Translations under genes and position numbers: made by a program
Notes under the pieces: generated by a model
Told to the model about the DNA's origin: nothing
The model's input: only the letters and a program-made list of their open reading frames with translations
Databases searched by the model: none
Source: Abditibacteriota bacterium
GTDB taxonomy: Bacteria > Armatimonadota > UBA5829
Length of the DNA: 64,000 nt
NCBI GenBank assembly: GCA_017552965.1
Contig: JAFZNQ010000099.1
Coordinates: 1 to 64,000, forward strand
Direction: 5' to 3'
Part shown: positions 23,393 through 56,741 of the stretch, in pieces
How the letters are laid out: each line of letters begins with the position of its first letter
How positions within the stretch are numbered: position 1 is the stretch's first letter

Positions 23393-23743
23393 ATGCACGA
23401 AATGTCTATAGCCGCAGGCATATTGTCTGCGGCTGAACTTGCGTCGGAGGGCAGACCAGTAAAGGCTGTGAGCATAGTGCTGGGGGAGCTGGCGGGGATA
23501 GACGACGAGAGCCTGCGTCTCTGCTGGGAGCTCGTTTCCGAGAATACCTGCTGCAGCGGCGCCTCTCTGGACGTCAGATACGTATACGCCGACCTGAAAT
23601 GCCTGGATTGCGGCAAGGTGTTCCCACTCAGAACAAACAGGTCCCTTCTGTGCCCGGAATGCGGCGGGGAAGGGCGCCTGACAGACAGGACGGATATGCA
23701 GTATATCGAAGCTGTGGAGCTGTATGATGACCATCAGGCTTAA
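23393..23743 (+). CDS. hypA: Hydrogenase nickel incorporation protein HypA
   Basis: This 116-residue zinc metallochaperone delivers nickel to the NiFe-hydrogenase large subunit together with HypB. It begins MHEMS, whose His2 binds Ni. A zinc ribbon is formed by CLDCG and CPECG (residues about 64-90). It is the first gene of the complete set hypA-B-F-C-D-E and overlaps hypB by 20 bases. Confidence 0.92.
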   Translation: MHEMSIAAGILSAAELASEGRPVKAVSIVLGELAGIDDESLRLCWELVSENTCCSGASLDVRYVYADLKCLDCGKVFPLRTNRSLLCPECGGEGRLTDRTDMQYIEAVELYDDHQA

Positions 23744-24383
23744 GACGGACATATTGGGCGAGAACTCCCTGCGCGCCGATGAAAACCGGTCCTTTTTCCG
23801 CGGGGAGGAGCTGTGTGTCGTCAACGTGTGCGGCGGTCCCGGCGCCGGCAAGACCACTCTCATTGCCGCTCTGTGCGAGCTGCTGAAGGACCGGGTCCCC
23901 ACAGGCGTGATAGAGGGAGATATAGCTTCGGAGATAGACACGGAAGCCCTGCTGGCAAAGGGCATAAAGGCCGTGCAGATCAACACCATGGGCGCCTGCC
24001 ACCTGACAGCCATGCAGGTCTACAGGGGCGTCCGCGACCTGGGCGTCTCCGGCGGCATAGTGTTCGTGGAAAACATAGGCAATCTGGTCTGTCCTGCCTC
24101 CTTTGATCTGGGGGAGGCCTGCCGGATAGCCGTGACGGGAGTCACGGAGGGCGCCGACAAGCCCTACAAATACATCACCATGTTCCGGTCGGCCCATATG
24201 GCGGTGCTGACCAAATGCGATATGATGGACTATTGCGGCTTTGACGCGGAATACTTTCAGCGGGGTCTGAGAGCCGTCGCTCCCGACTGCGAGCTGTACA
24301 GGACCGGCATTGACCTCCGGTCGGCGGAGCCTCTGGCCGAAAGGCTGCTCCTGATCCGAAACGCATGCAGAGAAAAAGAATAA
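23724..24383 (+). CDS. hypB: Hydrogenase/urease nickel GTPase HypB
   Basis: This 219-residue SIMIBI GTPase has the P-loop GGPGAGKTTL, an EGDIASEID switch, a nickel/zinc-site segment ACHL and an FVENIGNLVCPASFDLG motif that identifies HypB. The N-terminal His-rich nickel store of some HypB proteins is absent. It uses GTP hydrolysis to hand nickel to HypA and the hydrogenase precursor. It overlaps hypA upstream and hypF downstream. Confidence 0.93.
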   Translation: MMTIRLKTDILGENSLRADENRSFFRGEELCVVNVCGGPGAGKTTLIAALCELLKDRVPTGVIEGDIASEIDTEALLAKGIKAVQINTMGACHLTAMQVYRGVRDLGVSGGIVFVENIGNLVCPASFDLGEACRIAVTGVTEGADKPYKYITMFRSAHMAVLTKCDMMDYCGFDAEYFQRGLRAVAPDCELYRTGIDLRSAEPLAERLLLIRNACREKE

Positions 24384-26569
24384 TCCTGTCGGGCATAGTC
24401 CAGGGGGTAGGCTTCCGCCCCTTTGTCTGGCGGCTGGCCTCCGGCATGGGCCTGACAGGCTTTGTGTGCAACAGAGGGGCCGAGCTGCTGTGCGAGGTCC
24501 AGGGAGACCCGGCAGCTCTGGAGACCTTCGGAGCCAGAATGATAGCCGAAGCCCCGGTCAATTCACGCATAGAAAACGTCACCCGATACGATCTGCCCCC
24601 CAAAGACGAGGCCTCCTTTTGCATCATCAAATCCCGGCGGGGAGAAGAGGGGACCGGCACCGGTCTCTCTCCGGATCTCGCCCTGTGCCGGGACTGCAGA
24701 AGGGAGATGTCCGATCCCTCGGACCGCCGGTACAGGCACCCCTTTATAAGCTGCACCGCCTGCGGCCCCAGATTTTCCATAGCGTTGTCCATCCCCTACG
24801 ACCGAACGAATACCTCCATGAAGGATTTTGAGATGTGTCCCCGCTGCGCCTCCGAATACGAAAGCCCCTCGGACAGAAGGTATCACGCCCAGCCCGTGGC
24901 CTGCCACGATTGCGGGCCGGTGGTCAGGCTGGCCGGCACGGAGCTGACGGGCTATGAGGCCATAGAGCAGACCAGAAGCATCATCCTTCAGGGCGGCATA
25001 GCGGTGGTCAAGGGCATAGGCGGCTTTCATTTCTTCTGCGACGCCGGGGACCCGGCGGCAGTGGAGAGGCTGAGGCAGGTCAAGGGCCGCAGGGACAAGC
25101 CTTTTGCGGTGATGGCTCACCCGGATGACATCAGGCGCTTTGCCCTGGTGAGCGCGGAAGAAGCGGAGCTGCTGGAATCTGCCGCCGCTCCCATTGTGCT
25201 GCTGAAAAAAAGCCCGGACTATCCTCTGGCCGGGTCCGTGTCGCCGGACAACGACCGTATAGGCGCGATGGTGCCCTATACTCCTCTGCACCATATGCTG
25301 CTCCGTCCCGGCGACGTGTTTGTGGCCACCAGCGGCAACCTGTCCGGAGAGCCGGTGTGCTGCAGTGACCGGGAAGCGGAGGAGCGGCTGCTGCCCGTGG
25401 CAGACGCGCTGCTCACCCACGACAGACCCATAGTCAGACCGGCAGACGACAGTGTGGTCCGCCGGGGAGAAGGAGATATGCTGATGCTCCGCAGGTCCAG
25501 AGGCTATGCCCCCGGGAGCGTGGAGCATTTTGTCCGGGGCAAAAAGCCGGCGGACATCCTGGCCATGGGCTCCGACCTGAAAAACACCCTGTGTCTGAAG
25601 GCGGGCAGCAAATACATACTCAGCCAGCATATAGGCGACCTGGAGCACAAGGCGGTCTTTGACCTGTTTTGCAGGACTGCGGAGGATATGAAGGCCCTTT
25701 TTTCCCGCCGGCCCTCTCTGGTGTGCTGCGATATGCATCCGGACTATCTGTCCTCCCGTTACGCCGCCGAGATATCCCCGGAGCCCCTGCGGGTCCAGCA
25801 TCACGCGGCCCACGCGGCGGCGGTGGTGGCGGAGCACGGGCTGACCGGCCCGGTGATAGGGGTGGTGTTTGACGGCACCGGCTACGGCTCGGACGGAGCC
25901 ATATGGGGCGGAGAGTTTTTGGCGGGGACTCCGGACCGCTTTGAGAGGCCCTGGCACTTCGAATATATCCCTCTTCAGGGAGGCGACGCCGCCATCCGGG
26001 AGCCTGTGAGAAGCTACGTGTCCTATATGCACTATTGCGGGGAAGACACACCAGGCTTTCCCCTGCTGCGGGAAGCCCTGGACCGGGGCGTCAATACCTG
26101 CCGGAGCTCCAGCTGCGGCCGTTTGTTTGACGCGGCCGCCTGGGTCTGCGGCATCAGGAGCGAGCCGGACTACGAGGCCAGAAACAGCATCCTGCTGGAA
26201 AATATGTCGGAGCCCACGGAGGAGTATCTGGAGGTGGAGATGTCGGAGGGCGTCCTGAGGGTGGCAGACCTCATCCCGCGGCTGGAAAAGGCCATCGGAG
26301 ACGGCATGGACCCTCACAGGGCCGCCTCGGTGTTTCACAGGACCATAGCCCGCCTCGTTCTGGCGGCCTGCTGCGATATACGCAGGCAAACGGGCTACGA
26401 CAGAGTGTGCCTGAGCGGGGGAGTGTTTCAGAACGCCCTGCTGCTGGGACAGTGCCTGTCACTGTTGAGGGACGGCGGCTTTGAGGTATATACGGGCAAC
26501 AGGGTGCCCGTGAACGACGGAGGCCTGTCTCTTGGGCAGGCTCTGATAGGGCAGATGAGGGGAGAATAG
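24365..26569 (+). CDS. hypF: Carbamoyltransferase HypF
   Basis: This 734-residue enzyme activates carbamoyl phosphate and transfers the carbamoyl group to the HypE C-terminal Cys, the source of the CN ligands. Domains in order: acylphosphatase (1-90, GIVQGVGFRPFVWRLA), two zinc fingers (CRDC...CTACGPRFS and CPRC...CHDCGP, about 105-185), YrdC-like (200-380) and a Kae1-like C-terminal domain with HHAAHAAAV and FDGTGYG. All expected motifs are intact. It overlaps hypB by 19 bases and is followed three bases later by hypC. Confidence 0.94.
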   Translation: MQRKRIILSGIVQGVGFRPFVWRLASGMGLTGFVCNRGAELLCEVQGDPAALETFGARMIAEAPVNSRIENVTRYDLPPKDEASFCIIKSRRGEEGTGTGLSPDLALCRDCRREMSDPSDRRYRHPFISCTACGPRFSIALSIPYDRTNTSMKDFEMCPRCASEYESPSDRRYHAQPVACHDCGPVVRLAGTELTGYEAIEQTRSIILQGGIAVVKGIGGFHFFCDAGDPAAVERLRQVKGRRDKPFAVMAHPDDIRRFALVSAEEAELLESAAAPIVLLKKSPDYPLAGSVSPDNDRIGAMVPYTPLHHMLLRPGDVFVATSGNLSGEPVCCSDREAEERLLPVADALLTHDRPIVRPADDSVVRRGEGDMLMLRRSRGYAPGSVEHFVRGKKPADILAMGSDLKNTLCLKAGSKYILSQHIGDLEHKAVFDLFCRTAEDMKALFSRRPSLVCCDMHPDYLSSRYAAEISPEPLRVQHHAAHAAAVVAEHGLTGPVIGVVFDGTGYGSDGAIWGGEFLAGTPDRFERPWHFEYIPLQGGDAAIREPVRSYVSYMHYCGEDTPGFPLLREALDRGVNTCRSSSCGRLFDAAAWVCGIRSEPDYEARNSILLENMSEPTEEYLEVEMSEGVLRVADLIPRLEKAIGDGMDPHRAASVFHRTIARLVLAACCDIRRQTGYDRVCLSGGVFQNALLLGQCLSLLRDGGFEVYTGNRVPVNDGGLSLGQALIGQMRGE

Positions 26570-26572
26570 ACC

Positions 26573-26797
26573 ATGTGCGTAGCATATCCTCTGAAGGTGC
26601 TGGAGACAGACGGCAACAAAGGAGTGGGGGAAGCAGGCGGGCTGAGATTTGAATTTGCCTGTGACTTTTGTCCCGAGCTCAGGCCCGGCGATTACGTGCT
26701 GGTCCACGCCGGTTGCGCCATCGAAAGGCTGGACCCTGAGGAAGCCGAAAGGACTCTGCTCCTCTTCCGGGAGCTGCGGGAGGCTCTGGATGATTGA
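26573..26797 (+). CDS. hypC: Hydrogenase assembly chaperone HypC/HupF
   Basis: This 74-residue chaperone begins MCVAYP; the Cys2 essential for binding the Fe(CN)2CO unit and the large-subunit precursor is present, with the strand pattern ending GDYVLVHAGCAIERLD. It escorts the iron centre between HypD and the hydrogenase. It overlaps hypD by eight bases. Confidence 0.9.
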   Translation: MCVAYPLKVLETDGNKGVGEAGGLRFEFACDFCPELRPGDYVLVHAGCAIERLDPEEAERTLLLFRELREALDD

Positions 26798-27812
26798 CCT
26801 CGCTCTTCTGAGAGACGGGATTTCCGGCTACCGGGGCCGGCCGGTCAGGCTGATGGAGGTCTGCGGCAGCCATACGGCCGCCGTCATGAGATACGGCATC
26901 AGAAGCATATTGCCAGACTCGGTCCGGCTCATCAGCGGCCCCGGCTGTCCCGTGTGCGCTGCCGACGAAGCGTATCTGCGCTCCGCAGCCGGTCTGGCCG
27001 GGGAGGCCAGGCTCATGTCCTTTGGGGATATGGCCCGGTCGGTGAGGCTGTGTTGCCCCGACGCCCCGGTGGAGACGGTCCTGTCACCTCTTGCGGCCGT
27101 GGAGGAGGCTGCCTGTCATCCCGATGAAAGGATAGTCTTTCTGAGCGTGGGCTTTGAAACCACCAATCCGGTCTGCGCCCTGTCCGTGCTGAAGGCAAAG
27201 GCTCTGGGCCTCACCAATTTTTCCCTGCTGGTCTGCAACAAGCGCATGCCTCCCATACTGGAGCATCTGGCCGCAGGAGACGCCGGCATCGACGGATATT
27301 TGCTGCCGGGCCACGTGTGCGCCGTGAGCGGCACCGGCTTTTATGAAGAGTTTTGCCGTAAGTACAGGGTGAAGGGCTGCGTGGCAGGCTTTGACCCGGA
27401 GCAGATACTGGGCGCTCTGTACGTCCTGCTCCTGGGCAGCGAGAGCTTTTACAACGGCTATTCATACGTAAAAAGGGAAGGCAGTCCCCGGGCCATGGCT
27501 GCGGTGGAAGAGGTGTTTGAGCCCTGCGCCGCCGTGGTGAGGGGGCTGGGGCCCATACCCGGAGCGGGACTCAGGCTCAGGGACAAATATGCAGACTATG
27601 ATGCGGCCCGGATATACCGTATGGCCGGAGGCGGGTCGGCAGAAACGGCAGGATGCCGCTGCGGAGACGTGATATGCGGCAGGATCACTCCCGAAGAGTG
27701 CCCTCTCTTCGGCATCCGGTGCCGGCCGGAGGAGCCCAAGGGGCCCTGCATGATATCCTCGGAAGGGACCTGCGCGGCCTATTACGATTATGGTGAAAGG
27801 AGACCTGTATGA
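26790..27812 (+). CDS. hypD: Hydrogenase formation protein HypD
   Basis: This 340-residue Fe-S protein is the scaffold on which the Fe(CN)2CO moiety is built with HypC. Diagnostic motifs are MEVCGSHT, GPGCPVC and VGFETT, and C-terminal cysteines (CRCGDVICG...) bind the [4Fe-4S] cluster. The ATG at 26790 lies inside the end of hypC; longer in-frame upstream codons are only the shadow of hypC. The stop overlaps the hypE start. Confidence 0.93.
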   Translation: MIDLALLRDGISGYRGRPVRLMEVCGSHTAAVMRYGIRSILPDSVRLISGPGCPVCAADEAYLRSAAGLAGEARLMSFGDMARSVRLCCPDAPVETVLSPLAAVEEAACHPDERIVFLSVGFETTNPVCALSVLKAKALGLTNFSLLVCNKRMPPILEHLAAGDAGIDGYLLPGHVCAVSGTGFYEEFCRKYRVKGCVAGFDPEQILGALYVLLLGSESFYNGYSYVKREGSPRAMAAVEEVFEPCAAVVRGLGPIPGAGLRLRDKYADYDAARIYRMAGGGSAETAGCRCGDVICGRITPEECPLFGIRCRPEEPKGPCMISSEGTCAAYYDYGERRPV

Positions 27813-28795
27813 CCGAGATCACACTGTCTGCGGGAGCAGGCGGCAGAGTGTCCCAGCAGCTGGCGGAGGAGGTGCTGTTTCCCATACTGGGCAAGGGCGT
27901 CAACGGCTATGACGCCGCCGTGATAGACCCGGGCCGCGCTGCCGTCAGCACTGATTCCTACGTGATATCCCCCTTGTTTTTCCCGGGGGGGAGCATCGGG
28001 ACTCTGGCCGCAGCCGGGAGCGTCAACGACGTGCTGACCACCGGCGCCCGGCCCAAATACCTGACCTGCGGCCTCATCATAGAAGAAGGCCTCCCCACGG
28101 AGACCCTGATATCCGCGCTGAAGGATCTGCGCAGGGAGGCGGACAGAAACGGAGTGACGGTGGTGTCGGGAGACACCAAGGTGGTCCCCCGGGGACAGTG
28201 CGACAAGATGTTTATCAATACCGCCTGCATCGGGACTCTCGGGAGGGAAGCCTTTTCCCCCCGGCGCATAGAGCCCGGAGACGCGGTCATAGTCACCGGC
28301 TGTCTGGGAGAGCACGAATGCGCTCTCATGATATGCCGCCACCGTCTGGGCGCTGAGCCCATCGCTTCGGACTGCGCAGGACTTGCGCCGCTCCTTGCGC
28401 CCTTTGCCGACGCCGTGCCCGGCATAAAGGCTATGCGGGATCCCACCAGAGGAGGCATAGCCGCCGCCCTCAACGAGATGGCTCTGCAAAGCGGCTGCGG
28501 CATAGAGATAGACGGCCCCTCTCTGCCGGTAAGCCCCCGGGTGAAGGCCTTTTGCGGAGCTATGGGGCTGGACGTCACTTGTCTGGCCAACGAGGGCAAG
28601 ATGCTCATATTTGTCAGTCCCGGGTCCGCCGGCGCCGCATTGGAATGGCTGCGCAGCCACCCGGGAGGAGAAAATGCGGCGGTCATAGGCGCTGTGACGG
28701 ACAGGAGCCCCATGCCCCGGGTGGTCCTGAAGACAGAGGTGGCTGCCAGGCTGCTGCCCATGCCCTCCATGGAGCAGGTGCCCCGGATCTGCTGA
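27809..28795 (+). CDS. hypE: Hydrogenase maturation dehydratase HypE
   Basis: This 328-residue PurM-fold enzyme dehydrates the thiocarbamate on its C-terminal Cys to thiocyanate for the CN ligands. The protein ends PRIC, the required terminal Cys. The N-terminus reads LSAGAGGRVSQQL, and VSTDSYVISPLFFPGG and MRDPTRGGIAAALNEM match the family. It closes the hyp cluster. No NiFe-hydrogenase structural gene lies in the window. Confidence 0.94.
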   Translation: MTEITLSAGAGGRVSQQLAEEVLFPILGKGVNGYDAAVIDPGRAAVSTDSYVISPLFFPGGSIGTLAAAGSVNDVLTTGARPKYLTCGLIIEEGLPTETLISALKDLRREADRNGVTVVSGDTKVVPRGQCDKMFINTACIGTLGREAFSPRRIEPGDAVIVTGCLGEHECALMICRHRLGAEPIASDCAGLAPLLAPFADAVPGIKAMRDPTRGGIAAALNEMALQSGCGIEIDGPSLPVSPRVKAFCGAMGLDVTCLANEGKMLIFVSPGSAGAALEWLRSHPGGENAAVIGAVTDRSPMPRVVLKTEVAARLLPMPSMEQVPRIC

Positions 28796-38339: not shown

Positions 38340-38861
38340 TTATTTCCCCGTATGTATAGTCATTTCCGTATCGGTGAGCCTGATGCGGCCCTCCCGGATA
38401 TCCACCTTGCCGCCGGAAGCCTTAGCCGTGGCGTCCCGGGTGCTGATCACAAGGCCGCCGGGGGCGGTGATGATGTCGTTGTCCATCAGGTATCTGCAGG
38501 TCTTGGCGGTGATCCGGGCGTCTCCTGCCGTGATGGTCACCGGCCCTGCCGCAGTCACGCCCCGCTCATTGGCGTTGTATCTGATGCCGCCGCAGGAAAA
38601 ACGGACGTCCTGCAGGGCAAAGCTGCCCTCCGCCTTTTGGGTCCTGACGGTCCCGTTCCTTTCGGACATAAAAGCCACCGCCGTATGGAACTCTACGGCC
38701 GGCTTGCCCTTATGATACAGGATGCACCGGGCGTTTTCGGCCCTGATGTCTCTGCCGGCGGGTATGAGCTCCGGGGCGTTGGCCCTGGTGAAGCTGTACC
38801 AGCTGAGGACCGCCAGCAGGATGCAGGCAGGGACGGACAATACGGCAAAGAGCTTCTTCAT
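38340..38861 (-). CDS. lptC: LptC-like LPS export protein
   Basis: This 173-residue protein has one N-terminal transmembrane helix (4-24) followed by an OstA/LptC-type beta domain (strands such as GVTAAGPVTITAGDARITAKTCRYL and ATAKASGGKVDIREGRIRLTDTEMTI). The single anchor plus one beta domain is the LptC layout, accepting LPS from LptB2FG and passing it to LptA. It overlaps csaB by four bases. Confidence 0.7.
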   Translation of the reverse strand: MKKLFAVLSVPACILLAVLSWYSFTRANAPELIPAGRDIRAENARCILYHKGKPAVEFHTAVAFMSERNGTVRTQKAEGSFALQDVRFSCGGIRYNANERGVTAAGPVTITAGDARITAKTCRYLMDNDIITAPGGLVISTRDATAKASGGKVDIREGRIRLTDTEMTIHTGK

Positions 38862-39847
38862 AGCCGGGCAATTGAGTCCGCAAAGGACATGAGCGAATCC
38901 TTGTCCGGCGGAGCAGGGGAGAGGCCGGGCTCCGCCAGCCGGGCGAGGAGGGCCTCCCGGGTCAGGCTGTCTATCTCCAGCGGCTCCTGACCGCAGGCCC
39001 GGGAAAAGGCGTCGATTTTGGGGTCATAGGATATGGCCACAAAGGGCACCTGTTCCGCGGCTGCCAGTATGAGAGAGTGGAGCCTGACGCCTACGATCAC
39101 ACGAGACCGGGCTATGACGCCCCGCATCATGGCGAAGTCCAGAGGCCCGTCCACAGAGGCGACGCCTGCTATCAGCCTGTCTTCTGCGAAGAACATGGGC
39201 AGACACAGGGGCTGAAGTCCGGTGCTCCGGGCGTATTGCTCTATGGCGGCAGTCAGAGGCTCCAGATAGGAGTTGTCCTTCCAGGGCCTGGGGCACACCG
39301 TAAAATAATCGCCTGTGATCCCCGCTGCCGCAAGGACCTGCTCCGGGTCTTTGGAGGAGCAGAGAAAGGCGGGGTCAGGTACCACCCGGGCGTCAATGCC
39401 GTATTTGGCGAGAAAAGAGGCGGAGTCTGCGTCTCTCACGGACACCAGGCTCACCTTCCGCAAAAGGCTCATGGTCCTGGATATGTGTTGTTGGCCCGAC
39501 AGAGGTCCTATGCCCTGGGCGAAGACCACGGTCTTTTTGCCCAGCAGCATGGCTGCGAGCAGCAGGGCGAGATAATAATACAGCGAGCGGCTGCTGGTGG
39601 CGTTCTGGAAGAGAGAGCCTCCTCCGCTGATGAAGACGTCGCAGTCGGCAATGGCCTTCAGGGTGGCGGGAGACATCCGGGGGGCCGCCGGCACCCCGTG
39701 CAAAGCTTCGGTGTAGGCTCTGTCGGCGGACAGAACGGTGATCCGGTGGAGACCCGCTTCCCGCAGGGAGGCTATGATGCCGGACAGGACCGCCTCGTCT
39801 CCGCCGTTGCCGTAGCCGTAAAAGCCGGATATAAGGAGCTTTTTCAT
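38858..39847 (-). CDS. csaB: Polysaccharide pyruvyl transferase CsaB
   Basis: This 329-residue enzyme is of the polysaccharide pyruvyl transferase family. Features: MKKLLISGFYGYGNGGDEAVLSGI at the N-terminus (GYGNxGDE is the CsaB signature), ISGGGSLFQ in the middle and the C-terminal VGVRLHSLILAAAEQVPFVAISYDPKI. CsaB adds ketal pyruvate to secondary wall polymers, the ligand for SLH domains. Coupling with lptA-lptC and a DUF5693 gene suggests outer-membrane or S-layer attachment through a pyruvylated polymer. Confidence 0.88.
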   Translation of the reverse strand: MKKLLISGFYGYGNGGDEAVLSGIIASLREAGLHRITVLSADRAYTEALHGVPAAPRMSPATLKAIADCDVFISGGGSLFQNATSSRSLYYYLALLLAAMLLGKKTVVFAQGIGPLSGQQHISRTMSLLRKVSLVSVRDADSASFLAKYGIDARVVPDPAFLCSSKDPEQVLAAAGITGDYFTVCPRPWKDNSYLEPLTAAIEQYARSTGLQPLCLPMFFAEDRLIAGVASVDGPLDFAMMRGVIARSRVIVGVRLHSLILAAAEQVPFVAISYDPKIDAFSRACGQEPLEIDSLTREALLARLAEPGLSPAPPDKDSLMSFADSIARL

Positions 39848-39848
39848 A

Positions 39849-41714
39849 TTATTTGCGCAGAGGCTTGCGGGCTGCGATATAGACGACGGCGCCCGCCAGG
39901 AGGCCGCACCACAGTCCGTTGGCCGCTCTGATAAGGCTGATGATCACCGGGGTGTGTATGTGACAAAAAGTATTGAACAGGCTGATGAGCGCTATGGTCC
40001 CGATGACCGCAAAGAAGCCGCCCCAGGCTCTGTTGTTGCGGAACAGCAGGAAAAAGCCCAGCAGCAGGGAAGGGTAGCCTATCAAAAACTCTTTGCTCCT
40101 GGGACGGACGTACACTATCCTGTCCAGGATGCTTCTCAGCTTCAGCTCCGCTGCGGAAACGCCGATGCCTGCGTCATTGCCGCTGCGGGCCAGCATCAGG
40201 GCCACCACCGCCAGCAGACAGGCTCCGATGATGATGAGACCTATGTTGGCGGGCTTTGACATGCAGCTTTTGAGAGCCTCCGTCATATCCCGGAGGGACA
40301 TTTTACGATAGAGGGCTCCCGTGACGCACAGCAGAGATACTATGAGAAGGGGAGCAAAGTGGACCAGCTTCACGCCTGCGTACACCTGATTGCGCATCAC
40401 GTAGGAGGTGTCCGACAGCAGAGCGAGATTGAGGATGGCTCCCCCCAGGGTCACGCCAAAGGCGATGAGCACCGCAGCCCCGGCCGTCAGAAGGTTGCCC
40501 TTTTTGAGGCTCCCGTCCGAGATGTTTTTGACTGCGCAGGCTGTGGCCAGCACGGGGACCGTGATGCCCAGGAGCAGCGTGACTATCTTGATACACATGC
40601 CGCCCTGCCATCCCATAAAGGAAAAGAGTCCTATGGCCGGGACAGCGCAGACCAGCTGCAGAGTGGGGCTGATGTTGAAGATCAGGCACACCAGGACCAG
40701 GATGGCCATGGCGGCGCCGGCGGCTGCTATGGCCTTCAGCAGCCGGTTCTCCTGCAGCTGCAGGGTGGGGTGAACGGGCTTCACTGCGCAGCCTGCCCGG
40801 GCAAGCCTCTCCGCAAGAGAGCGCGTGTAGAGACAGCACTCCTTCAAGGGGTCGGCGCCGGTCTTGTCAAAGGGCCTCACGTAGAGCAGCCGGACGTTTC
40901 GTTCCCGGGCAGCCTTTACGTAGCGTTCGATGGCGGTGTCCTGAGCCATGGAGGCCATTTCCGCCTGAGAGATGGAATGGACCCCGATGAGGTGCTTCAG
41001 GTTTTCCTCGGCCAGAGTGGTTTCTCCCTTTTGACGGGCAAACTCTATCCTGCCAAAGTATATATTGCGCCGGTCCATTTCCCGGCCCAGATACTCGAGA
41101 CAGCTCCTGTAGCCCAGGATGGTGTCGCCGTTGAATATGATCCGGTCTATCTCCAGCAGCTGCAGATAATCCAATATGCAGGCGATGGAGGCTTCGTCGG
41201 CTCCGTCGTAGGCGGGTATCCTGCCGCAGATCAGCATATTGGCACTCTTGGCGTCCTCCAGCTCCCGGTCATAAAAGCCGATAGGCAGCCGTTCTATGAG
41301 GTCCTTGTTGATGACTGTGTTGTCAAATCTGAGCAGGATGGTGGAGCCGTAGAGCACTATGCTGATCCTGTCTCCGAACACCAGATCAAAAAGGCGGGGG
41401 ATAAAGGTCAGATTGGAATAGCCGGACAGCTCGTATTCACCCGGGGTCCTCTGTATCACGTGGCCCTTGGCCGCCGCGGACGCAATGGTGTCCATCTCGA
41501 TGGCTACGGTGGTGACGCCGGACTTTTTCATCCGCTTCAGGACCTCCTCCACGGAGTTGTCTGTGACGGCGGCAATAGCCTTGACCTCGTTGTAGTCCAT
41601 GCATATCTCGACCGCCCTGTTGTGGGATTCGGCGCTGATCTTCTGCGTGGTGATGATGCATGCAGCCAAAAGGGCTGCCATCAGGACAAAAACGGCCGCG
41701 GAATACCTTAGCAT
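39849..41714 (-). CDS. DUF5693 family membrane protein
   Basis: This 621-residue protein has one N-terminal anchor, an exported domain of about 310 residues (NSVEEVLKRMKKSGVTTVAIEMDTI is typical of DUF5693) and a C-terminal half with around eight transmembrane helices. In Firmicutes and related phyla DUF5693 genes accompany csaB almost invariably, pointing to a shared role in making or moving the pyruvylated wall polymer. The biochemical function is unknown. It begins 12 bases after argH on the same strand. Confidence 0.8.
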   Translation of the reverse strand: MLRYSAAVFVLMAALLAACIITTQKISAESHNRAVEICMDYNEVKAIAAVTDNSVEEVLKRMKKSGVTTVAIEMDTIASAAAKGHVIQRTPGEYELSGYSNLTFIPRLFDLVFGDRISIVLYGSTILLRFDNTVINKDLIERLPIGFYDRELEDAKSANMLICGRIPAYDGADEASIACILDYLQLLEIDRIIFNGDTILGYRSCLEYLGREMDRRNIYFGRIEFARQKGETTLAEENLKHLIGVHSISQAEMASMAQDTAIERYVKAARERNVRLLYVRPFDKTGADPLKECCLYTRSLAERLARAGCAVKPVHPTLQLQENRLLKAIAAAGAAMAILVLVCLIFNISPTLQLVCAVPAIGLFSFMGWQGGMCIKIVTLLLGITVPVLATACAVKNISDGSLKKGNLLTAGAAVLIAFGVTLGGAILNLALLSDTSYVMRNQVYAGVKLVHFAPLLIVSLLCVTGALYRKMSLRDMTEALKSCMSKPANIGLIIIGACLLAVVALMLARSGNDAGIGVSAAELKLRSILDRIVYVRPRSKEFLIGYPSLLLGFFLLFRNNRAWGGFFAVIGTIALISLFNTFCHIHTPVIISLIRAANGLWCGLLAGAVVYIAARKPLRK

Positions 41715-43122: not shown

Positions 43123-45027
43123 TTATGGGAACACGGAATATACGGGCATTCCGTACACCATACTGATTATACTCCAAAATGTACCAGCCAGAGCGTCGCC
43201 GATAATAAGCCCCAGGAAAAACGGCAGAGCCCTGGTAAATACCCGAAGCCCTCCGTATTTGAGGATGACCACCTTGCACAGCCAGGCGGCAAAGGCCGAG
43301 ACCCACAGCGAATTGGTCTGGACCGAGCTCATCATGGCGTAAGCCACCGGATTCAGGGGGAACCCCGGTATCCGGAGCTTGGCTATGCTGAGCAGGATGC
43401 AGCTCACAAACCCGCCGGCGATGGCGCATATGCCGCTTGGGTCGGGTATGGTGCCGTTTTTCAGCGAGCTCTCCATGATGGCGTAGGTCTCGCTGCCCAG
43501 CAGGATGGTGATGCTGTTCATGTTGGAAGCGGCGCCCAGCCTGTAATAGTTGTTGAGAGCCACTGCGAAGCCGCAGACTATGGAAAAGGCGGCAAACAGT
43601 ATCAGCAGCAGGGCTATGGGCCGTTTGTTGACGCCGGCAGTGTCCGCCAGCTTCAGGCTTTCCATCTGGACCGGCATCATATTGGTCCTGTAGCAACGAT
43701 TGAAAAAATAGAATTGCTGCAAGCCTATGACGTTTGCGGCGCCCAGGGTGGCGGAGCCCGCATTTTCCAGCAGTATATAGGTGATGCTGGAATGATTGAT
43801 CTCGTGACAGGGCGCCCCCAGCTCCGCTCTGGTCCTGGTGACCGCTATGCTGATCACGAAATATCCCGCTATGGCGGCGACGGCCACAAGGCCGGAGCAG
43901 CCGATGGCTCTGGCATACAGCATCATGGCGCAAAGCCCCAGCAGCATGCCCCAGACGGCGTGCCTGTGATCCATGGGCTCGTCCTTGCCGGCGTCCCTGC
44001 TGCCGGAATACAGGGATGCGAATATTTCTCTGAATTCGCTGCGGCCGGCATACAGGGCTATGACGAATATACCCAGTATGAAGCCGAAGCACTGCTCCGG
44101 GATAAAGGGAAACCTCTGCATGCCCGAGATGCCTGTCGCTGCTCCGAATATGAGCTGCAGCTTGGTCAGTATATAGAAAAACCAGTACGAAAAAGACAGA
44201 TCCGCCGGGACCATAAAGAAAATGCCTATGGCCAGAGGATACAGGCGTATGGGCGTCCAGCCTATGGCGTTCCAGGGCGGCTGGGTGCAATACTGCAAAA
44301 GATCCAGATTCTTGAAGTTCACCACCGGGAAGGATGGAAACAGTCCGTTCAGCCCCTGGACCACCGTAAACAGTATGCCTATGGCGGCGCCGAGATACAT
44401 GGCTTTGTTGGTAAAAAAGCCTCCGTCCTCCCGGGTCATCTCCGCAGGTATATTGACCAGGGGAAAGGACAGCTTTTCGCTCTCGGTCCACCTGTGTCTG
44501 AGAATGGCGTTCATACACAGCATGGTGTAGAACATGATGATCATAAAGACGCCCCACAGGCACAGGGGCTTCAGCCAGTGTCTCAGATATTTCCACTGAA
44601 AAAAGCTCTCTCCGCCGGTGTAAAAAGCGTCGGCGGCGGCCTTGTCCTTGACTATGGACCAGTCGGGTATCCTGTTGATGAACAGGTTGTACCAGTTGTT
44701 TTCGGCAGTGGCGTATCGGAGAGGATGGCACATGTTGGAGAGAAACACGTGCAGATAGTCATGGCCTATCACCGCGCCGGATACGTTGAGGGCTATATAT
44801 ATGACCGCGAGCTCTCCCCGGCGCAGGACTCTGTCCGGCCGGAAGCGTCCGACTATCCCGTTGACGCCTATAAGCACCAGCAATATGAATACGGACGTAA
44901 AAAAGACGGACAAGGCCGTGGGACTGGCAGAGTAGAGCACTGCCTCTGTCCTGTGTATCCACCAGATATGGATCGGTATCAGCAGGAACGACAAAACTGC
45001 CGCGCGCAGGGTGACCGCTTTTTTCAT
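43123..45027 (-). CDS. DUF6785/DUF6784-type multi-spanning membrane protein
   Basis: This 634-residue integral membrane protein has about 14 hydrophobic segments, with no signal peptide beyond the first helix. Patterns such as ELGAPCHEINHSSITY, NPVAYAMMSSVQTNSLW and a C-terminal GLIIGDALAGTFWS match the large DUF6785/6784 membrane proteins of Armatimonadota and Planctomycetota, which are distant relatives of OPT transporters. The substrate is unknown. The start is ATG 45027 (MKKAVTLRAA); the much longer open frame upstream reads through the promoter and the divergent gene and is rejected. It may share a transcript with argH. Confidence 0.68.
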   Translation of the reverse strand: MKKAVTLRAAVLSFLLIPIHIWWIHRTEAVLYSASPTALSVFFTSVFILLVLIGVNGIVGRFRPDRVLRRGELAVIYIALNVSGAVIGHDYLHVFLSNMCHPLRYATAENNWYNLFINRIPDWSIVKDKAAADAFYTGGESFFQWKYLRHWLKPLCLWGVFMIIMFYTMLCMNAILRHRWTESEKLSFPLVNIPAEMTREDGGFFTNKAMYLGAAIGILFTVVQGLNGLFPSFPVVNFKNLDLLQYCTQPPWNAIGWTPIRLYPLAIGIFFMVPADLSFSYWFFYILTKLQLIFGAATGISGMQRFPFIPEQCFGFILGIFVIALYAGRSEFREIFASLYSGSRDAGKDEPMDHRHAVWGMLLGLCAMMLYARAIGCSGLVAVAAIAGYFVISIAVTRTRAELGAPCHEINHSSITYILLENAGSATLGAANVIGLQQFYFFNRCYRTNMMPVQMESLKLADTAGVNKRPIALLLILFAAFSIVCGFAVALNNYYRLGAASNMNSITILLGSETYAIMESSLKNGTIPDPSGICAIAGGFVSCILLSIAKLRIPGFPLNPVAYAMMSSVQTNSLWVSAFAAWLCKVVILKYGGLRVFTRALPFFLGLIIGDALAGTFWSIISMVYGMPVYSVFP

Positions 45028-46281: not shown

Positions 46282-46311
46282 TTGAAATGTGCCTCGGGAA
46301 TATGCTATAAT
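46282..46311 (+). promoter_or_regulatory. Promoter of the pseudo-M28/FtsX-OPT-PqqD-ABC cluster
   Basis: TTGAAA at 46282-46287, an 18-base spacer, TGC and TATAAT at 46306-46311, 37 bases before the start codon. Confidence 0.75.
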
Positions 46312-46347: not shown

Positions 46348-49300
46348 ATGAAAATAAACAAAGGCTTTATCATCAACATCGTTTATGCTATCATCTTTCT
46401 GGTAGCCCTCTTTTTCCTGTTCGTATATCCGTGGACCGATTCAAGCTTGGCCAAGAAAAAACTTGAGTTTGACCCCAATGCCGTGTCGGTAAGACCGACT
46501 CCGGAATGGCTGACCCAAAGGTACGCGGACCTCATCGGCGCAGTCAGCACAGACAATCTGCAGAAGACCGTGACGGACATGTCCGGCTTTTCATCCTCGA
46601 GAGTCACCGGCTATCCCGGCTGCGATATGGCTGCCGACTATATCATCAAGGCCTTCAAGGACGCGGGGCTCAAGGGCTTTACGTCCGACGAAGTCGAGGT
46701 GCATCCTTTCAAGGTCACCGTCCCCATAGAACACGAATCCAAGCTCGTTGTAGGTGATGAGACCATCAAGATCTATGCCCTTTGGCCCAATCTTGCCCGC
46801 ACATCACAGGTTGACAAAAACGGCATCGACGTCCATCTTATAGACGGCGGCAACAGCCTGGCTGTCAGCTTTGACGGGAAGAAGGTCAAGGATTCCGCCA
46901 CGGTACTCAACTTCAACATAGGCACCAACTGGCTGAACGCTTCCAGACTCGGCTCCAAAGCCATATTGTTCCGGGAGCCCGACGGGCAGATATCCCGCGG
47001 TGAAGCCGAAGCCAAGTTCAGCAACATCCCCATCAACATCCCTCGTTTCTGGCTGCCCAAGGAAAGCGCAGAGAGAGTGGATCAGCTCATGGCCCAGGGC
47101 AATGACAAGGCCAGGATCTATTGCGATATGTCTTGGGACAAGGTGGAAGGCAAGAATATCGTGGGAGTCATCCCCGGCACCGACCCCGAGCTGAAAGACG
47201 AGTGGGTAGTCATCAACGCCTATTACGACGGCATATCCGTCGTGCCCGGCATCGCCCCTTCTGCCGAGAGCTCCACCGGCATCGCCGCCATGCTCGAAAT
47301 GGTCAGGATCTTCTCACAGCCCGAATTCGCTCCCAAAAGAAGCATCATGTTCGTGGCTCTGTCCGGTCACTTCGAGACCCTCTCCGGCATGAGGAACTTT
47401 ATCCATCAGCAGATCGACTCCTACGTCAGGCCCTCCATGGCCGAAAGGGCGCTGCACAAGATCGGCCTCAAGAAGGGCGAGCTGAACGATCCTCCCAAGT
47501 TCTACATGTGGGCCGGCCTGGACCTCAACAGCCAGACTCCGGGCGTGGGCCTCTTTTACAAAGCCTATTTTTATGACAACAAGGAAGACATCCAGAAATT
47601 CGTTTCGCCTATAGGCACCACCGCCCGTGAGACTGCCGAAAGGCTGGCCAATATCTACGATTACAAGACCAACTTCTCCGAGCATTACGCCGACGCTATC
47701 AACCCTGTCGGCGGCAAGACCTGGCGCGGTCTGATCCCCAGCCGTTTTGCCTTTGACCAGGAGGTCATCACCGGCGCCAGCCAGAGAGGTCTGACCTTTG
47801 CCACGGTCAACGACAACCGCCGCCTGGTGGACACCCCCTTTGACACTCCCGACAGAGTCAACTATGGCAACATCAAGACTCAGATGGAGATGATCATGTG
47901 TATCACCGACCACTGGTTCCGGGATCCTGCCGTGGTGTCCGCGGAAGAGGTCATCGAGGCCGAGGTGGTGGACCGGAACACCGTCAAATACAAGGACGAG
48001 AAGGATATGGGGTATCTCATCGGCGTCTTCGTCAAGAAGAGCGGCAAGGGTGAGAACTTCTTCAGACATTCCGAGACCAGATACCTGCCCAAGGTCAACT
48101 CGAACTGTGAGTTCAAGCTGAAAAAGCCTCTTCCCAACGGCTTCAACAAGGGCGACACTATATACATCCGCCAGGAAAAGATATCCCGTCTGGGCGTCAG
48201 CAAGCCTCAGGAGTTTTCCAGGCTGACCATCAGAGGCGGCTTTTCCACCCTGTCCGGCGACGTGGTCAAATACGACCCCAAAAAGAGCTTCGTCCCCAAC
48301 CTGGAAGTTGAGGACAGTCTGGTGGTCCTCAAGAGCTGGTACAAATCCCTGACCGGCGTCCGGGCCGCCTACATAGAGCGCACCGAGGTGGTGGGCGAAG
48401 GCGAGAACAAAAAGACTGCCCACTATACTCTGCCCGGCGTAGTGAATACCACCATGACCTATTTCAACAAGCAGGTATTCATATCCGCCTTCAGGACCAG
48501 CAGGGAAAACGGCGATATCATCTCCGCGCCGGATATAGGCAACTACGGCGAATATTATCCCAAGACCTTCAAGATCACCACTGCCTACAAGGAAGTGCCT
48601 ATCATCGTATTTGACTGTACGGCCACTTCCGTGTATGAGCTGCTGGACACCCAGGGACTCAGGTCTCTGACCGGTATCTCCGTGTATGACGGTATCACCG
48701 ACGGCAACCCCAAGCAGTACTACAGAGACGTGTCCAACCCCGACAGCCCTCTGGTGGAGGATACAGCGGTCATCTTCGCCGAAGAGACTCCCGAGTCCAA
48801 AAAGGGTCTGGCCAAGGTGCCCATCAAGATCATCATGAACGCCGGCCCCAGGGCCAACAGGCTCCTCCTGGTCAACTCCAGCGACGAAAAGCCCGAGGGA
48901 GAAGGCTATGACTTTTCCAGGGGCGGAGTACTGGACGAGACCGCCTACAGAGCGGCCAAGGATATGTACGCCCTCAACAAGTTCAGACTGGACTCTCTGT
49001 CCAGCAAGGGTATCAAGAATCAGGCTCTTCAGGAGCTCAACGATATGGCCGGCGAGAACCTTCTGGCCGCCGAGCATGCCAAGAATACGGACCGCTACAG
49101 CATATTCGACTCCTACTCCAGGACCGCCTGGGGCTTCGCGTCGAGAGCATATCCCGATATAGCGGCCACCAGCCAGGACGTGGTGAACGGCGTGATATTC
49201 TACCTGTTCCTGCTGATCCCGTTTGCCTATTTCTGCGAAAGGCTCTTCTTCGCTTTTCCGGAGATCAAATGGCAGCTTGTAGGCTTTTTCGGCATATTCA

Positions 49301-51309
49301 TAGCCATATTCTTTATATTCAGATTCGTGCATCCCGCGTTTGACATCGCGGGCAACCCCCTGATAGTGCTCATCGCATTTATCATGCTGTCTCTGTCGGG
49401 CGTGGTGATATTTATAGTCATAGGCAAGTTTGAAGAGCAGCTCAAGGAGCTGGCAGCCGCATCCATGGGGTCCAAGGGCTCCGAAGGCGGCAAGGTGGCC
49501 GTGGCCGGCGCCGCATTCTCCCTGGGCGTCTCCAACATGAGAAGGAGAAAGACCAGAACGGTGCTGACCTGCGTGACCCTGATCCTGCTCACCTTCATAG
49601 TGCTGTCCTTCACCTCCGTGACCAGCGTCATCAGGATGAACAAGATACCTGTCAAGGCCAAGCCCGGTATCAAGATCTACAACGGTATTCTGGTGCGCAT
49701 GCCCAACTGGCAGAGCCTGCAGGAAGTGTCCTACAAGGTCCTGTATGACGAATACAAGCGTGACAAGAAGGTCGGCAACCTGGTAGCTCCGAGAGCTTGG
49801 TTCTACGGCATCAGCCCCATGGAATTCAACCTGCAGCCTCTTATCAACGGCGACAAGCTCTATTCTGCCAGAGCGCTGGTAGGTCTGTCGCCGGACGAAG
49901 CCGGTATCATGGGCATATACAACAGCAACAGCAAGATACTGAAATACGGCGACTGGTTCGGCTATGAAAACGGCGTCTACACGGGCAACGTGGATCCCCA
50001 CAGCCTGATCATCCCCGACACCATAGCAGAATCTCTGGAGATCACCAAGGACAACTACAAGGACAAGAAGATAGAGTTCGCCGGCAGTGTATACAAGGTG
50101 GTGGGCGTGGTCAACCCCGCAGCCATCAAGGCCCACAGGGATCTGGATAACGAGATCATCACTCCTGCCGACCTGCTGCTCATGGGCGCCACCAAGGTGT
50201 CTCAGGGCGGCGGCGAGGCCGAAGAGGACGCGGGCTTTGTGGAATTTACCCACATAGATCCTTCGGCAGTGTTCTATATCCCCTACGAGACCAGCATAGT
50301 GCTGGGCGGCGAGATCAAGAGCATCGCGGTGAAGCTGGGGTCCGGCGACGTGGAAGACAGCCTGGCCTCCCTCATGAAGAGGATCAACCTGAACCTGTAC
50401 GCAGGTATCGACGGCCGCATATACAGATTTTCCTCCCTGTCGGGCAAGTCCTCTCAGGGTATGACGAGCCTGATCATCCCTATCATCATAGCCGCTCTCA
50501 TCGTGCTCAACACCATGATGAGCTCCGTGTATGAAAGGACCAAGGAGATAGGCATCTATTCGTCCATCGGTCTGTCGCCTCAGCATATCGCCATGCTGTT
50601 TATGGCGGAGTCGCTGGTATACGCCATCCTGGGCGCCGTATCGGGCTACGTCATAGGTCAGATATTGTCCAAGATCATCATGGTGACCAACATCATGCCC
50701 GGCCTATATCTGAACTTCTCGTCCATGTCGGCCGTAATAGCCACACTGGTCGTCAGCGGCGTGGTGATACTTTCTACCATATATCCTTCCAGAATGGCCT
50801 CCCGGGTGGCGACTCCCGCCGTGGACAGGATCTGGAAGCTCGAAGAGCCCGAGGGAGATCACTGGGTGGTCAAGCTGCCCTTTGCCATTACCGGCAAGCA
50901 GACCATGGGTATCACCTACTTTATCGGAGAATGGATCAATTCTCACGAAGAGTATTCCCTGGGCGACTTCGTTACCAAGAACGTTCAGCTGAGTAATTAT
51001 GAAGAAAACGGCGAGATGGTCTATTGCATCAAGTTCCGCTCCTGGATCGCTCCCTTTGACCTGGGCGTAAGTCAGGATACCCTGATCAAGATAGTGCCCA
51101 CGGAGCTGGAGGGTACCTATGAGGTGCGGATTGAGTTTGACCGCGTCAGCGGCGACGCCAGCAACTGGATCAGAGTCAACAGGCGTTTTCTCCATGCCTG
51201 CCGCAAGCAGTTCCTCATCTGGAGGACTATCAAGGCAGAGGACAGAGAAAAGTACATGGCTGAAGCCGAAAAGGTGGTTACGTCTGCCGGATCGTTGAAC
51301 GGCGCTTAA
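46348..51309 (+). CDS. Giant FtsX-type ABC permease with a degenerate M28-peptidase-like ectodomain
   Basis: This 1653-residue membrane protein has an N-terminal helix (7-28) and then an extracytoplasmic half resembling M28 peptidases with a PA insert (about 60-480). The metal-site residues are altered: the HxD motif reads YYD (292-294), the bridging Asp is Glu307, and the EE pair is replaced by HFE (341-343), so a catalytically dead, binding-type domain is likely. About 450 residues of unknown fold follow. Then come three helices (about 945-1040), an FtsX/MacB-type permease (helix after MRRRKTRT at 1064; three helices about 1372-1490 with TKEIGIYSSIGLS) and a cytoplasmic C-terminal domain (1498-1653). 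ATG 46348 is preferred over TTG 46336. It is first in a six-gene cluster ending in its likely ATPase. Confidence 0.8.
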   Translation: MKINKGFIINIVYAIIFLVALFFLFVYPWTDSSLAKKKLEFDPNAVSVRPTPEWLTQRYADLIGAVSTDNLQKTVTDMSGFSSSRVTGYPGCDMAADYIIKAFKDAGLKGFTSDEVEVHPFKVTVPIEHESKLVVGDETIKIYALWPNLARTSQVDKNGIDVHLIDGGNSLAVSFDGKKVKDSATVLNFNIGTNWLNASRLGSKAILFREPDGQISRGEAEAKFSNIPINIPRFWLPKESAERVDQLMAQGNDKARIYCDMSWDKVEGKNIVGVIPGTDPELKDEWVVINAYYDGISVVPGIAPSAESSTGIAAMLEMVRIFSQPEFAPKRSIMFVALSGHFETLSGMRNFIHQQIDSYVRPSMAERALHKIGLKKGELNDPPKFYMWAGLDLNSQTPGVGLFYKAYFYDNKEDIQKFVSPIGTTARETAERLANIYDYKTNFSEHYADAINPVGGKTWRGLIPSRFAFDQEVITGASQRGLTFATVNDNRRLVDTPFDTPDRVNYGNIKTQMEMIMCITDHWFRDPAVVSAEEVIEAEVVDRNTVKYKDEKDMGYLIGVFVKKSGKGENFFRHSETRYLPKVNSNCEFKLKKPLPNGFNKGDTIYIRQEKISRLGVSKPQEFSRLTIRGGFSTLSGDVVKYDPKKSFVPNLEVEDSLVVLKSWYKSLTGVRAAYIERTEVVGEGENKKTAHYTLPGVVNTTMTYFNKQVFISAFRTSRENGDIISAPDIGNYGEYYPKTFKITTAYKEVPIIVFDCTATSVYELLDTQGLRSLTGISVYDGITDGNPKQYYRDVSNPDSPLVEDTAVIFAEETPESKKGLAKVPIKIIMNAGPRANRLLLVNSSDEKPEGEGYDFSRGGVLDETAYRAAKDMYALNKFRLDSLSSKGIKNQALQELNDMAGENLLAAEHAKNTDRYSIFDSYSRTAWGFASRAYPDIAATSQDVVNGVIFYLFLLIPFAYFCERLFFAFPEIKWQLVGFFGIFIAIFFIFRFVHPAFDIAGNPLIVLIAFIMLSLSGVVIFIVIGKFEEQLKELAAASMGSKGSEGGKVAVAGAAFSLGVSNMRRRKTRTVLTCVTLILLTFIVLSFTSVTSVIRMNKIPVKAKPGIKIYNGILVRMPNWQSLQEVSYKVLYDEYKRDKKVGNLVAPRAWFYGISPMEFNLQPLINGDKLYSARALVGLSPDEAGIMGIYNSNSKILKYGDWFGYENGVYTGNVDPHSLIIPDTIAESLEITKDNYKDKKIEFAGSVYKVVGVVNPAAIKAHRDLDNEIITPADLLLMGATKVSQGGGEAEEDAGFVEFTHIDPSAVFYIPYETSIVLGGEIKSIAVKLGSGDVEDSLASLMKRINLNLYAGIDGRIYRFSSLSGKSSQGMTSLIIPIIIAALIVLNTMMSSVYERTKEIGIYSSIGLSPQHIAMLFMAESLVYAILGAVSGYVIGQILSKIIMVTNIMPGLYLNFSSMSAVIATLVVSGVVILSTIYPSRMASRVATPAVDRIWKLEEPEGDHWVVKLPFAITGKQTMGITYFIGEWINSHEEYSLGDFVTKNVQLSNYEENGEMVYCIKFRSWIAPFDLGVSQDTLIKIVPTELEGTYEVRIEFDRVSGDASNWIRVNRRFLHACRKQFLIWRTIKAEDREKYMAEAEKVVTSAGSLNGA

Positions 51310-53337: not shown

Positions 53338-54252
53338 ATGGCAGAGGAAAAGTTTGTCGTCACCGGCTGGGACGGAGTCACGGTAGAGATCCCGTCCAAA
53401 TGGAGCGTGGTGGGCTTTTATTCCGAGCGTAAGGGCGGCTACCTGAGAGTGGACAGTCCCATCGAGTCGGTGCTGGAGATGAAGTGGTCTCCCTCGGGAA
53501 AAAAGCACGGCGATCTGACGAAGATAGTCCATGATTTCATAGACAAGATCAAAAAGCCTCTTGTCAAAAAGAACAAGCGTCTCAATTTCGAAAGAGACGT
53601 GAAGCCCGAGAGGGACGGCGCCGTGGATTTTGCCTGGAATATGGGCGACAAACACGGCAGAGGCAGGATCAGGGTATGTCCCGACTGCGGCAGGGTAGTC
53701 CTGCTGCACCTCTACTTTTCCAGATCAGAGGTCAAGAGTCAGACTATCAATCATATCTTTGATTCGGTGAGAGACCACACGGAGGACGGTCTGGTCCGCT
53801 ACAGCCTGTACGGCCTGGACTTCAGACTGCCTCCCGGCTACAGATACAAAAAGCCCGTGCTCATGTCCGCCTACATCTCTCTGGTGTTCACCAAAGGCAT
53901 GGAGACTGTGGTGGTGGAAGCGCGCAATCTGGCTGCGAGCCTGCTGAAGCAGCACAGTCTGGAGGAGTGGTACAGGGTGGACGTGGCTCCCGACCTGAAG
54001 GCCTACAGGCTGAGGTATCAGCCCTGCTCCGTGGGCGAATGGGAAGCCCTGTCCGTGGAAGGCAGGCCCTCGGGACTCCTGGGGCTGTTGATGCGGACCC
54101 TGGCATTCTGGAGGACGCCGCGCTATGTCAGAGGTCTCGTGTGGCATGACAGGGATCGCAACACAGTATTTACGATCCGCTGCATGCAGAACAAAGAAAC
54201 CGCGCTCCTGGACACGGTGCGCGACAGTATGACAGAGGCGGCCCTTGAGTAA
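53338..54252 (+). CDS. Uncharacterised soluble protein with two similar halves
   Basis: This 304-residue protein has no signal peptide or transmembrane helix. Residues 1-145 and 155-300 show the same order of elements: a strand ending in a Pro (VEIPSKWSVV against FRLPPGYRYK), a strand pair, then a late segment (RVCPDCGRVVLLHLYFSR against DRDRNTVFTIRCMQNKE) and a closing helix (INHIFDSVRDH against LLDTVRDSM). That suggests an internal duplication, perhaps of a DUF1795/PsbP-like fold. I recognise no family. It overlaps the PqqD-like gene by eight bases and is probably a cytoplasmic partner of the transporter. Confidence 0.7.
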   Translation: MAEEKFVVTGWDGVTVEIPSKWSVVGFYSERKGGYLRVDSPIESVLEMKWSPSGKKHGDLTKIVHDFIDKIKKPLVKKNKRLNFERDVKPERDGAVDFAWNMGDKHGRGRIRVCPDCGRVVLLHLYFSRSEVKSQTINHIFDSVRDHTEDGLVRYSLYGLDFRLPPGYRYKKPVLMSAYISLVFTKGMETVVVEARNLAASLLKQHSLEEWYRVDVAPDLKAYRLRYQPCSVGEWEALSVEGRPSGLLGLLMRTLAFWRTPRYVRGLVWHDRDRNTVFTIRCMQNKETALLDTVRDSMTEAALE

Positions 54253-56000: not shown

Positions 56001-56741
56001 ATGTCTGATAATCAAAGAGATTATGTTGTAAGGACCCGCGGGGTTACCAAGGAATTCGTCACCGGAGACACCGTGCTCCAGGCCCTTAAGGGTATCGATC
56101 TGGATATATACGCCGGCGAATACATTTCGATCATGGGCCCTTCCGGCTCCGGCAAATCCACGTTTTTCAACATGGTGGGAGGCCTTGACAAGCCTACTAC
56201 CGGGACCGTGTTCATCAATGACGTGGATATGGCTCAGCTCGACGCTCAGGAGCTGGCTTATCTGAGATGCCGCACCATCGGCTACATATTCCAGAGCTTC
56301 AATCTGCTGCCCGTGATGACCGCTCTCGAAAACGTGACCCTGCCCACCATCTTTTCGGGTATGTCCAGGGACGAAGGCATCGAGAGAGCCATCGAGCTCC
56401 TGAACAAGGTGGGCCTCGGCCACAGACTGCACCACAGACCCACGGAGCTTTCCGGCGGTCAGCAGCAAAGAGTTGCCATCGCCCGCAGCCTGGCCAACAA
56501 TCCTTCCATCATCCTGGCCGACGAGCCTACCGGCAACCTGGACCTCAAGACAGGTACCGAGATCATCGACCTCCTGAAGACCATGAACAAGGAGCAGGGA
56601 GTCACCATCATATCCGCTACCCACGACCTGAAGATGCTCAACATCTCCGACCGTATCGTCTGGATACGCGACGGCGCCGTGGAAAAGATCGAAAACAGAT
56701 CGGATATCGACATCAAAGTCGGCGAGATGCAGCACGAATAA
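56001..56741 (+). CDS. LolD/MacB-type ABC transporter ATP-binding protein
   Basis: This 246-residue ATPase has Walker A GPSGSGKST, the signature LSGGQQQRVAIARSL, Walker B ILADEPTGNLD and a switch His in SATHD. The order and the EYISIMGPSG opening are those of type VII (mechanotransmission) ABC ATPases, which power FtsX-fold permeases to move lipoproteins, peptides or signals across the periplasm. GTGGAGG is upstream of ATG 56001. It closes the cluster before a terminator. Confidence 0.93.
   Translation: MSDNQRDYVVRTRGVTKEFVTGDTVLQALKGIDLDIYAGEYISIMGPSGSGKSTFFNMVGGLDKPTTGTVFINDVDMAQLDAQELAYLRCRTIGYIFQSFNLLPVMTALENVTLPTIFSGMSRDEGIERAIELLNKVGLGHRLHHRPTELSGGQQQRVAIARSLANNPSIILADEPTGNLDLKTGTEIIDLLKTMNKEQGVTIISATHDLKMLNISDRIVWIRDGAVEKIENRSDIDIKVGEMQHE

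Follow-up and report, generated by a model that had tools for sequence, protein, structure and literature searches.

The window analysed here, a 64,000-nucleotide stretch from an Abditibacteriota bacterium of the phylum Armatimonadota, encodes a large protein in which an FtsX-type permease is fused to an M28-fold ectodomain that has lost three zinc ligands and the Glu general base of the M28 peptidases. The former active site is strongly conserved in its altered form, and the gene heads a recurrent operon, two members of which co-occur with it across the genomes of its class. We read the protein as the larger of two permease subunits in an as yet unnamed Armatimonadota type VII ABC system, in which the pseudo-peptidase would bind a peptide-like periplasmic ligand and would work together with an OPT-like carrier, and we give this reading about an even chance of being right.

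Pfam placed Peptidase_M28 at residues 270–353 of the fusion protein (9.7e-10; 38.9 bits, cut-off 21.3) and FtsX at residues 1375–1486 (1.9e-15, above the curated cut-off), and hydropathy analysis predicted membrane segments separated by a loop of ~900 residues after TM1 and one of 270 residues after TM5 (Table 1). These matches, together with the structure models described below, bore out the original prediction of an M28-like ectodomain fused to an FtsX permease. The fusion is not an assembly artefact, because colinear full-length homologues, roughly 1490–2100 aa between stops, are present all over the phylum. Insertions bring the frame to 2034–2099 aa in two genera of the same family (G007:C15 and G009:C152; loci L036 and L038). 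Despite the pattern of the membrane segments, a duplicated permease in the style of YbbP or ADOP found no support in the sequence, because a profile comparison of TM2–4 (residues 935–1066) with the FtsX TMs (residues 1360–1500) gave no match (E 0.59). Promoter-like sites were in no excess over shuffles across the whole region, so the promoter listed for the fusion is putative.

Table 1. Features of the fusion gene and its operon (positions in the window; residue numbers refer to the fusion protein, and column counts to 82 homologues).
Feature	Position	Strand	Details or basis
Putative sigma-70-like promoter, TG-extended -10 (TTGAAA-18-TATAAT)	46282..46311	+	11/12 consensus matches, just upstream of fusion
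Pseudo-M28/PA ectodomain + MacB/LolC/FtsX-type permease fusion	46348..51309	+	1653 aa, single open frame from ATG at 46348 to stop at 51309; 8 hydrophobic segments, 1+3, 1+3 pattern
TM1, residues 8-30	46369..46437	+	Hydropathy; model helix 5-26
M28-fold ectodomain with PA insert, residues ~52-525	46501..47922	+	AlphaFold2 + Foldseek
PA (protease-associated) insert, residues ~110-265, boundaries approximate	46675..47142	+	Pfam PA in homologues
Y292-Y293-D294 in place of HxD	47221..47229	+	D294 82/82; residue 292 is H in 1/82
E307, bridging-Asp loop	47266..47268	+	E 67, D 14, T 1 of 82
H341-F342 in place of EE pair (general base, Zn1 ligand)	47368..47373	+	H341 82/82; F or Y at 342 in 69/82
D392, counterpart of AAP D179	47521..47523	+	Asp 81/82, Glu 1
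DxRxxxDTPxD motif, residues 489-499, D495 for AAP H256	47812..47844	+	D489, R491 82/82
Beta-rich periplasmic domain, residues ~530-865	47935..48942	+	AlphaFold2 secondary structure; no Pfam match
TM2-TM4, residues ~944-1030	49177..49437	+	Hydropathy; no detectable homology to FtsX TMs
MacB/LolC-type permease with periplasmic domain, residues 1066-1486	49543..50805	+	Pfam FtsX, Foldseek
C-terminal domain, conserved, probably cytosolic, residues 1500-1653	50845..51306	+	Many invariant columns
OPT-like polytopic membrane protein, 668 aa	51328..53334	+	Profile match to DUF6785 family, E 3.8e-6
304-aa protein, nearly invariant CxxC	53338..54252	+	Co-occurrence with fusion
PqqD-like peptide-binding-type protein, 127 aa	54245..54628	+	Pfam PqqD 8.2e-7, over cut-off
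Second FtsX-type permease, 434 aa	54618..55922	+	Pfam FtsX 4.3e-18
LolD/MacB-type ABC ATPase	56001..56741	+	ABC_tran 3e-34; LolD model 4.1e-72, under equivalog cut-off

An AlphaFold2 model of residues 575–1653 (pLDDT 85.8) was matched by Foldseek to MacB (3e-11), LolCDE (2e-9) and isolated MacB periplasmic domains (4e-4), all with low TM-scores. The protein thus combines an FtsX-type transmembrane domain with a MacB-like periplasmic domain, and its operon encodes an ATPase of the LolD/MacB/FtsE type, which together mark a type VII ABC system. Scores against the equivalog models were far lower than the cut-offs (21.8 bits against 362.45 for LolC/LolE; 19.8 against 255 for the FtsX model TIGR00439 and 24.9 against 250 for NF038346), and these scores place the fusion outside the LolCE and FtsX families at equivalog level.

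For the other half of the protein, the AlphaFold2 model of residues 1–622 had a mean pLDDT of 90.6, and the Foldseek matches to the ectodomain were led by the M28+PA aminopeptidase 2ek8 (E 2e-24), followed by PaAP, BSAP, transferrin receptor and GCPII. Membership of the M28 fold is also indicated by the above-threshold Pfam match and by the 74 of 78 homologues that match M28. The PA domain was found by Pfam in 39 of the 78 (best 3.2e-7), the window's own copy falling below threshold. The confident model, the match to an M28+PA enzyme and the high position of the transferrin receptor, which only binds, support the reading of the ectodomain as a pseudo-peptidase receptor.

We compared the pocket with that of the Aeromonas aminopeptidase (AAP), whose five zinc ligands are H97, D117 (bridging), E152, D179 and H256, with E151 as general base. 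The HxD and EE motifs were mapped by HMMER alignments, D179 by profile alignment to an intact M28 protein from a relative, and H256 through a C-terminal YHTP/DTPxD block aligned to 2ek8 and BSAP. Three zinc ligands are replaced (H97 by Y292, E152 by F342 and H256 by D495), as is the general base (E151 by H341), while D99 and D179 are kept as D294 and D392. The original prediction had read HxD as YYD (residues 292–294) and the EE pair as HFE (341–343) and had concluded that the catalytic residues were lost; the residues lie where it placed them, they align as it proposed, and the two-zinc site is absent across the family. Its assignment of Glu307 as the bridging Asp fared less well: E307 does sit in that loop, but the loop is one residue shorter (APGAE-SACG in the family against APGADDDASG), E307 adjoins the gap, and the HMM alignments pair it with D116. 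For it to replace D117, the deletion would have to be of D116, and its equivalence to D117 is therefore ambiguous. D392, D495 and the conserved operon had not featured in the prediction.

Column counts over 82 non-redundant homologues agreed with individual inspection of the HxD and EE motifs in 49 family members, none of which had an intact HxD/EE site, so that the conservation check proposed with the prediction came out in its favour. The D495 column is Asp in 78 of the 82, Asn in 3 and Glu in 1. Judged from these alignments, the substitutions are fixed in the family and are not signs of decay. The mean entropy of seven active-site positions was 0.50 bits, compared with 1.81 for the M28 core (p 4e-5 in 100,000 random draws, the positions having been chosen a priori from the AAP active site and the p value being optimistic in that homologues were treated as independent). 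The ranking is clear: the pocket appears to be under strong selection even though it is no longer a canonical M28 zinc site, which argues against a passive scaffold. It also makes the protein a clear example of a pseudoenzyme in which selection bears more heavily on the old active site than on the remainder of the domain. With its set of five zinc ligands incomplete and its general base replaced by a His throughout, the protein is, by its residues, not an M28 peptidase in the enzyme sense.

Homologues of the fusion were found at E ≤ 1e-20 in 197 of 291 sampled Armatimonadota genomes, or about two thirds. The original prediction had called the fusion unusual, which holds with respect to known systems but not for the phylum, where it is widespread and embedded in a conserved operon. 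A single-protein query over genome contigs gave no match; a family-alignment query of named genomes did, mostly in Armatimonadota MAGs. Outside the phylum, one contig each in a Desantisbacteria MAG (L140) and an Omnitrophota MAG (L153) carried a match, and these could reflect misbinning.

The conserved six-gene order runs from the fusion through the OPT-like gene, the 304-aa protein, the PqqD-like protein and the second FtsX permease to the ATPase. MAGs named Chthonomonas calidirosea are among those with the operon. Among 45 distinct loci that had 9 kb or more of downstream sequence, the OPT-like gene was next in 40, and all five partner types were present in 27. The permease and ATPase lie upstream of the fusion instead in Zipacnadia and its relatives, and several Fimbriimonadales loci have neither the OPT-like gene nor the remaining operon beside the fusion. 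Within the window's class, the OPT-like gene occurred in 17 of the 18 genomes with the fusion and in none of the 10 without, and the counts for the 304-aa family were identical; the exception is in each case a genome in which the contig carrying the fusion ends near it (OPT-like gene, G013; 304-aa gene, G003). This genome-by-genome count of the two genes indicates that both came and went with the fusion. The OPT assignment itself is a weak one, with Pfam OPT matching 2 of 30 homologues (best 1.2e-5) and giving no match to the window's copy.

Other neighbours recur as well. In several lineages, paralogues of the fusion adjoin genes for DUF6785, a distant relative of the OPT-like protein; in the window a divergent DUF6785/DUF6784 gene (43126–45018, minus strand), also a distant relative, lies just upstream of the fusion, and DUF6785 genes sit beside the fusion or its paralogue at loci L069, L070, L072, L140 and L158. 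Searches of the open-access literature, where absence is no proof, found no paper on DUF6785/DUF6784 and none on Armatimonadetes in connection with M28, OPT and an ABC permease. A CsaB-type polysaccharide pyruvyl transferase and a DUF5693 gene form a divergent pair a few kb from the fusion (38861–41714, minus strand), and the pair occurs near the fusion in the window's genus and in two other lineages (L061:604–3610 and L077:755–3812), hinting at an S-layer or envelope link. The second permease, 434 aa in the window, measures ~250 aa in some other lineages (L131:22142–22876), which suggests that its large periplasmic loop is clade-specific. Farther away, the window carries four genes that by eye resemble the hydrogenase maturation factors HypB, HypF, HypD and HypE (23724–28792, plus strand) and one for a GxGYxYP-type putative glycoside hydrolase (152–2491, minus strand; Pfam 2.4e-22).

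When the ATPase dimer of a type VII ABC system closes around ATP, the permeases relay the motion to domains in the periplasm. We infer that the operon's products form a complex of this kind, in which the LolD-like ATPase would bind and hydrolyse ATP and the paired FtsX-type permeases would transmit the motion to the periplasm. There the M28/PA ectodomain, having given up its two-zinc site, may hold a peptide-like ligand in its remodelled, conserved pocket, and the motion would alter its hold on that ligand or the release of it. The OPT-like carrier would take or deliver the ligand, depending on the direction of transfer, and probably in concert with the ectodomain, while the PqqD-like and 304-aa proteins would act at the cytoplasmic side. 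OPT and PqqD are peptide-handling families, and the proposed link to peptides comes from family resemblance (M28, OPT-like, PqqD-like), with the OPT match being weak. The suggestion in the original prediction of a sensor or substrate receptor is still plausible. A bolder version, possible but doubtful in our estimation, is that this is a new class of type VII ABC system that is widespread or ancestral in the Armatimonadota. Its pseudo-peptidase, having evolved a new ligand-binding or catalytic site, would supply an OPT-like secondary carrier, and the ATP-driven motion in the periplasm and the secondary transporter would together form one device for peptide uptake or peptide recycling.

The ectodomain might instead carry no cargo and serve as an ATP-driven signal transducer that recruits an enzyme of the periplasm, such as a cell-wall hydrolase, or activates it. 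FtsEX–EnvC provides the precedent: the catalytically dead M23 (LytM) domain of EnvC is paired with FtsX and activates amidases (PMC7668044), much as the fusion couples a dead peptidase-fold domain of M28 type to an FtsX-type permease, and the CsaB–DUF5693 envelope genes lie within a few kb of the fusion in three lineages. We nevertheless consider such a transducer unlikely, with the FtsX equivalog models far under cut-off, an OPT-like transporter and no hydrolase as the constant partner, and a conserved pocket that suggests a small ligand over a protein surface. EnvC itself is a separate M23-type protein held via a coiled coil (PMC7668044), and the operon partners differ.

Alternatively, the pocket could be a remodelled enzyme, in which a new site built from H341, D392, D495, E307 and D294, with a single metal or no metal at all, catalyses another reaction on a membrane-derived or periplasmic substrate, in a layout like that of YbbAP–TesA. 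These five residues are almost invariant, and a different metal could still be bound by D392, D495 and E307. However, both canonical zinc sites are incomplete, with H97, E152 and H256 replaced and the bridging-Asp loop shortened, and the single-zinc site of glutaminyl cyclases requires counterparts of AAP E152 and H256 too. The His at the base position is by itself no proof of inactivity, because the title of Bzymek 2005, as cited in PMC3426542 and PMC4320195, calls an E151H AAP functional, and the Aeromonas aminopeptidase chain 2anp has His at 151 in our alignments. The claim that the domain binds rather than cuts peptides is thus favoured by the loss of the site but tempered by that mutant and by the possibility of another metal. 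In YbbAP–TesA of E. coli, a type VII ABC transporter is indeed coupled with a hydrolase-fold partner in the periplasm (PMC12646458); TesA, though, is a separate and active esterase, whereas the fusion's domain is covalently attached, has the M28 fold and is without a peptidase site. On this evidence a remodelled enzyme, too, seems unlikely to us.

That the system replaces the lipoprotein exporter LolCDE is highly unlikely: its LolD-like ATPase and two LolC/E-type permeases would suit the role, and within the window's class strong LolCE-like permeases are found in 7 of the 10 genomes that lack the fusion but in 2 of the 18 that have it (one-sided Fisher ~0.003, from the counts), but this complementarity is not upheld across the phylum, where 48 of the 197 genomes that have the fusion carry such permeases (E ≤ 1e-22), as do 14 of the 94 others, many genomes lack both, and no LolA exceeded the cut-off in any of the 28 genomes of the class.

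Our preferred reading, a peptide-binding pseudo-peptidase on a type VII ABC machine, has partial parallels among known proteins. The M28+PA aminopeptidases 2ek8, BSAP (6hc6) and PaAP share the fold and the PA insert of the ectodomain, but are soluble, active two-zinc enzymes with their ligands intact, whereas the ectodomain is without the full set. Transferrin receptor 1 and nicalin are binding-only proteins that carry an M28 fold without a peptidase site on a transmembrane anchor. By sequence and fold matches the fusion resembles both, and transferrin receptor 1 has a PA domain as well; these proteins are, however, eukaryotic and have no link to an ABC permease, and the fusion differs in that conservation is higher in its pocket than elsewhere in the domain. 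Among bacteria, the metallopeptidase-like protein CA_C2195 (DUF4910) has been proposed to be a non-peptidase, but it has other inserts, a wHTH domain and sugar-modification neighbours (PMC4000134).

With LolCDE, MacB and FtsEX, the fusion system shares a four-TM FtsX-type permease, a MacB-like periplasmic domain and a separate LolD-like ATPase, and its second permease parallels the LolC/LolE pair. Beyond these systems, it adds an N-terminal TM, a ~900-residue M28/PA and beta ectodomain, three further TMs and a conserved C-terminal domain, as well as the OPT-like, PqqD-like and 304-aa partners. It thereby offers a concrete, testable envelope system for a phylum with few experimental handles. 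To our knowledge, in the type VII ABC systems described so far the periplasmic effector is a separate protein that has to be recruited (EnvC, LolA, MacA–TolC, TesA); here, an effector-like domain has been welded to the permease, retains a conserved pocket although the peptidase site is gone, and goes together with an OPT-like carrier.
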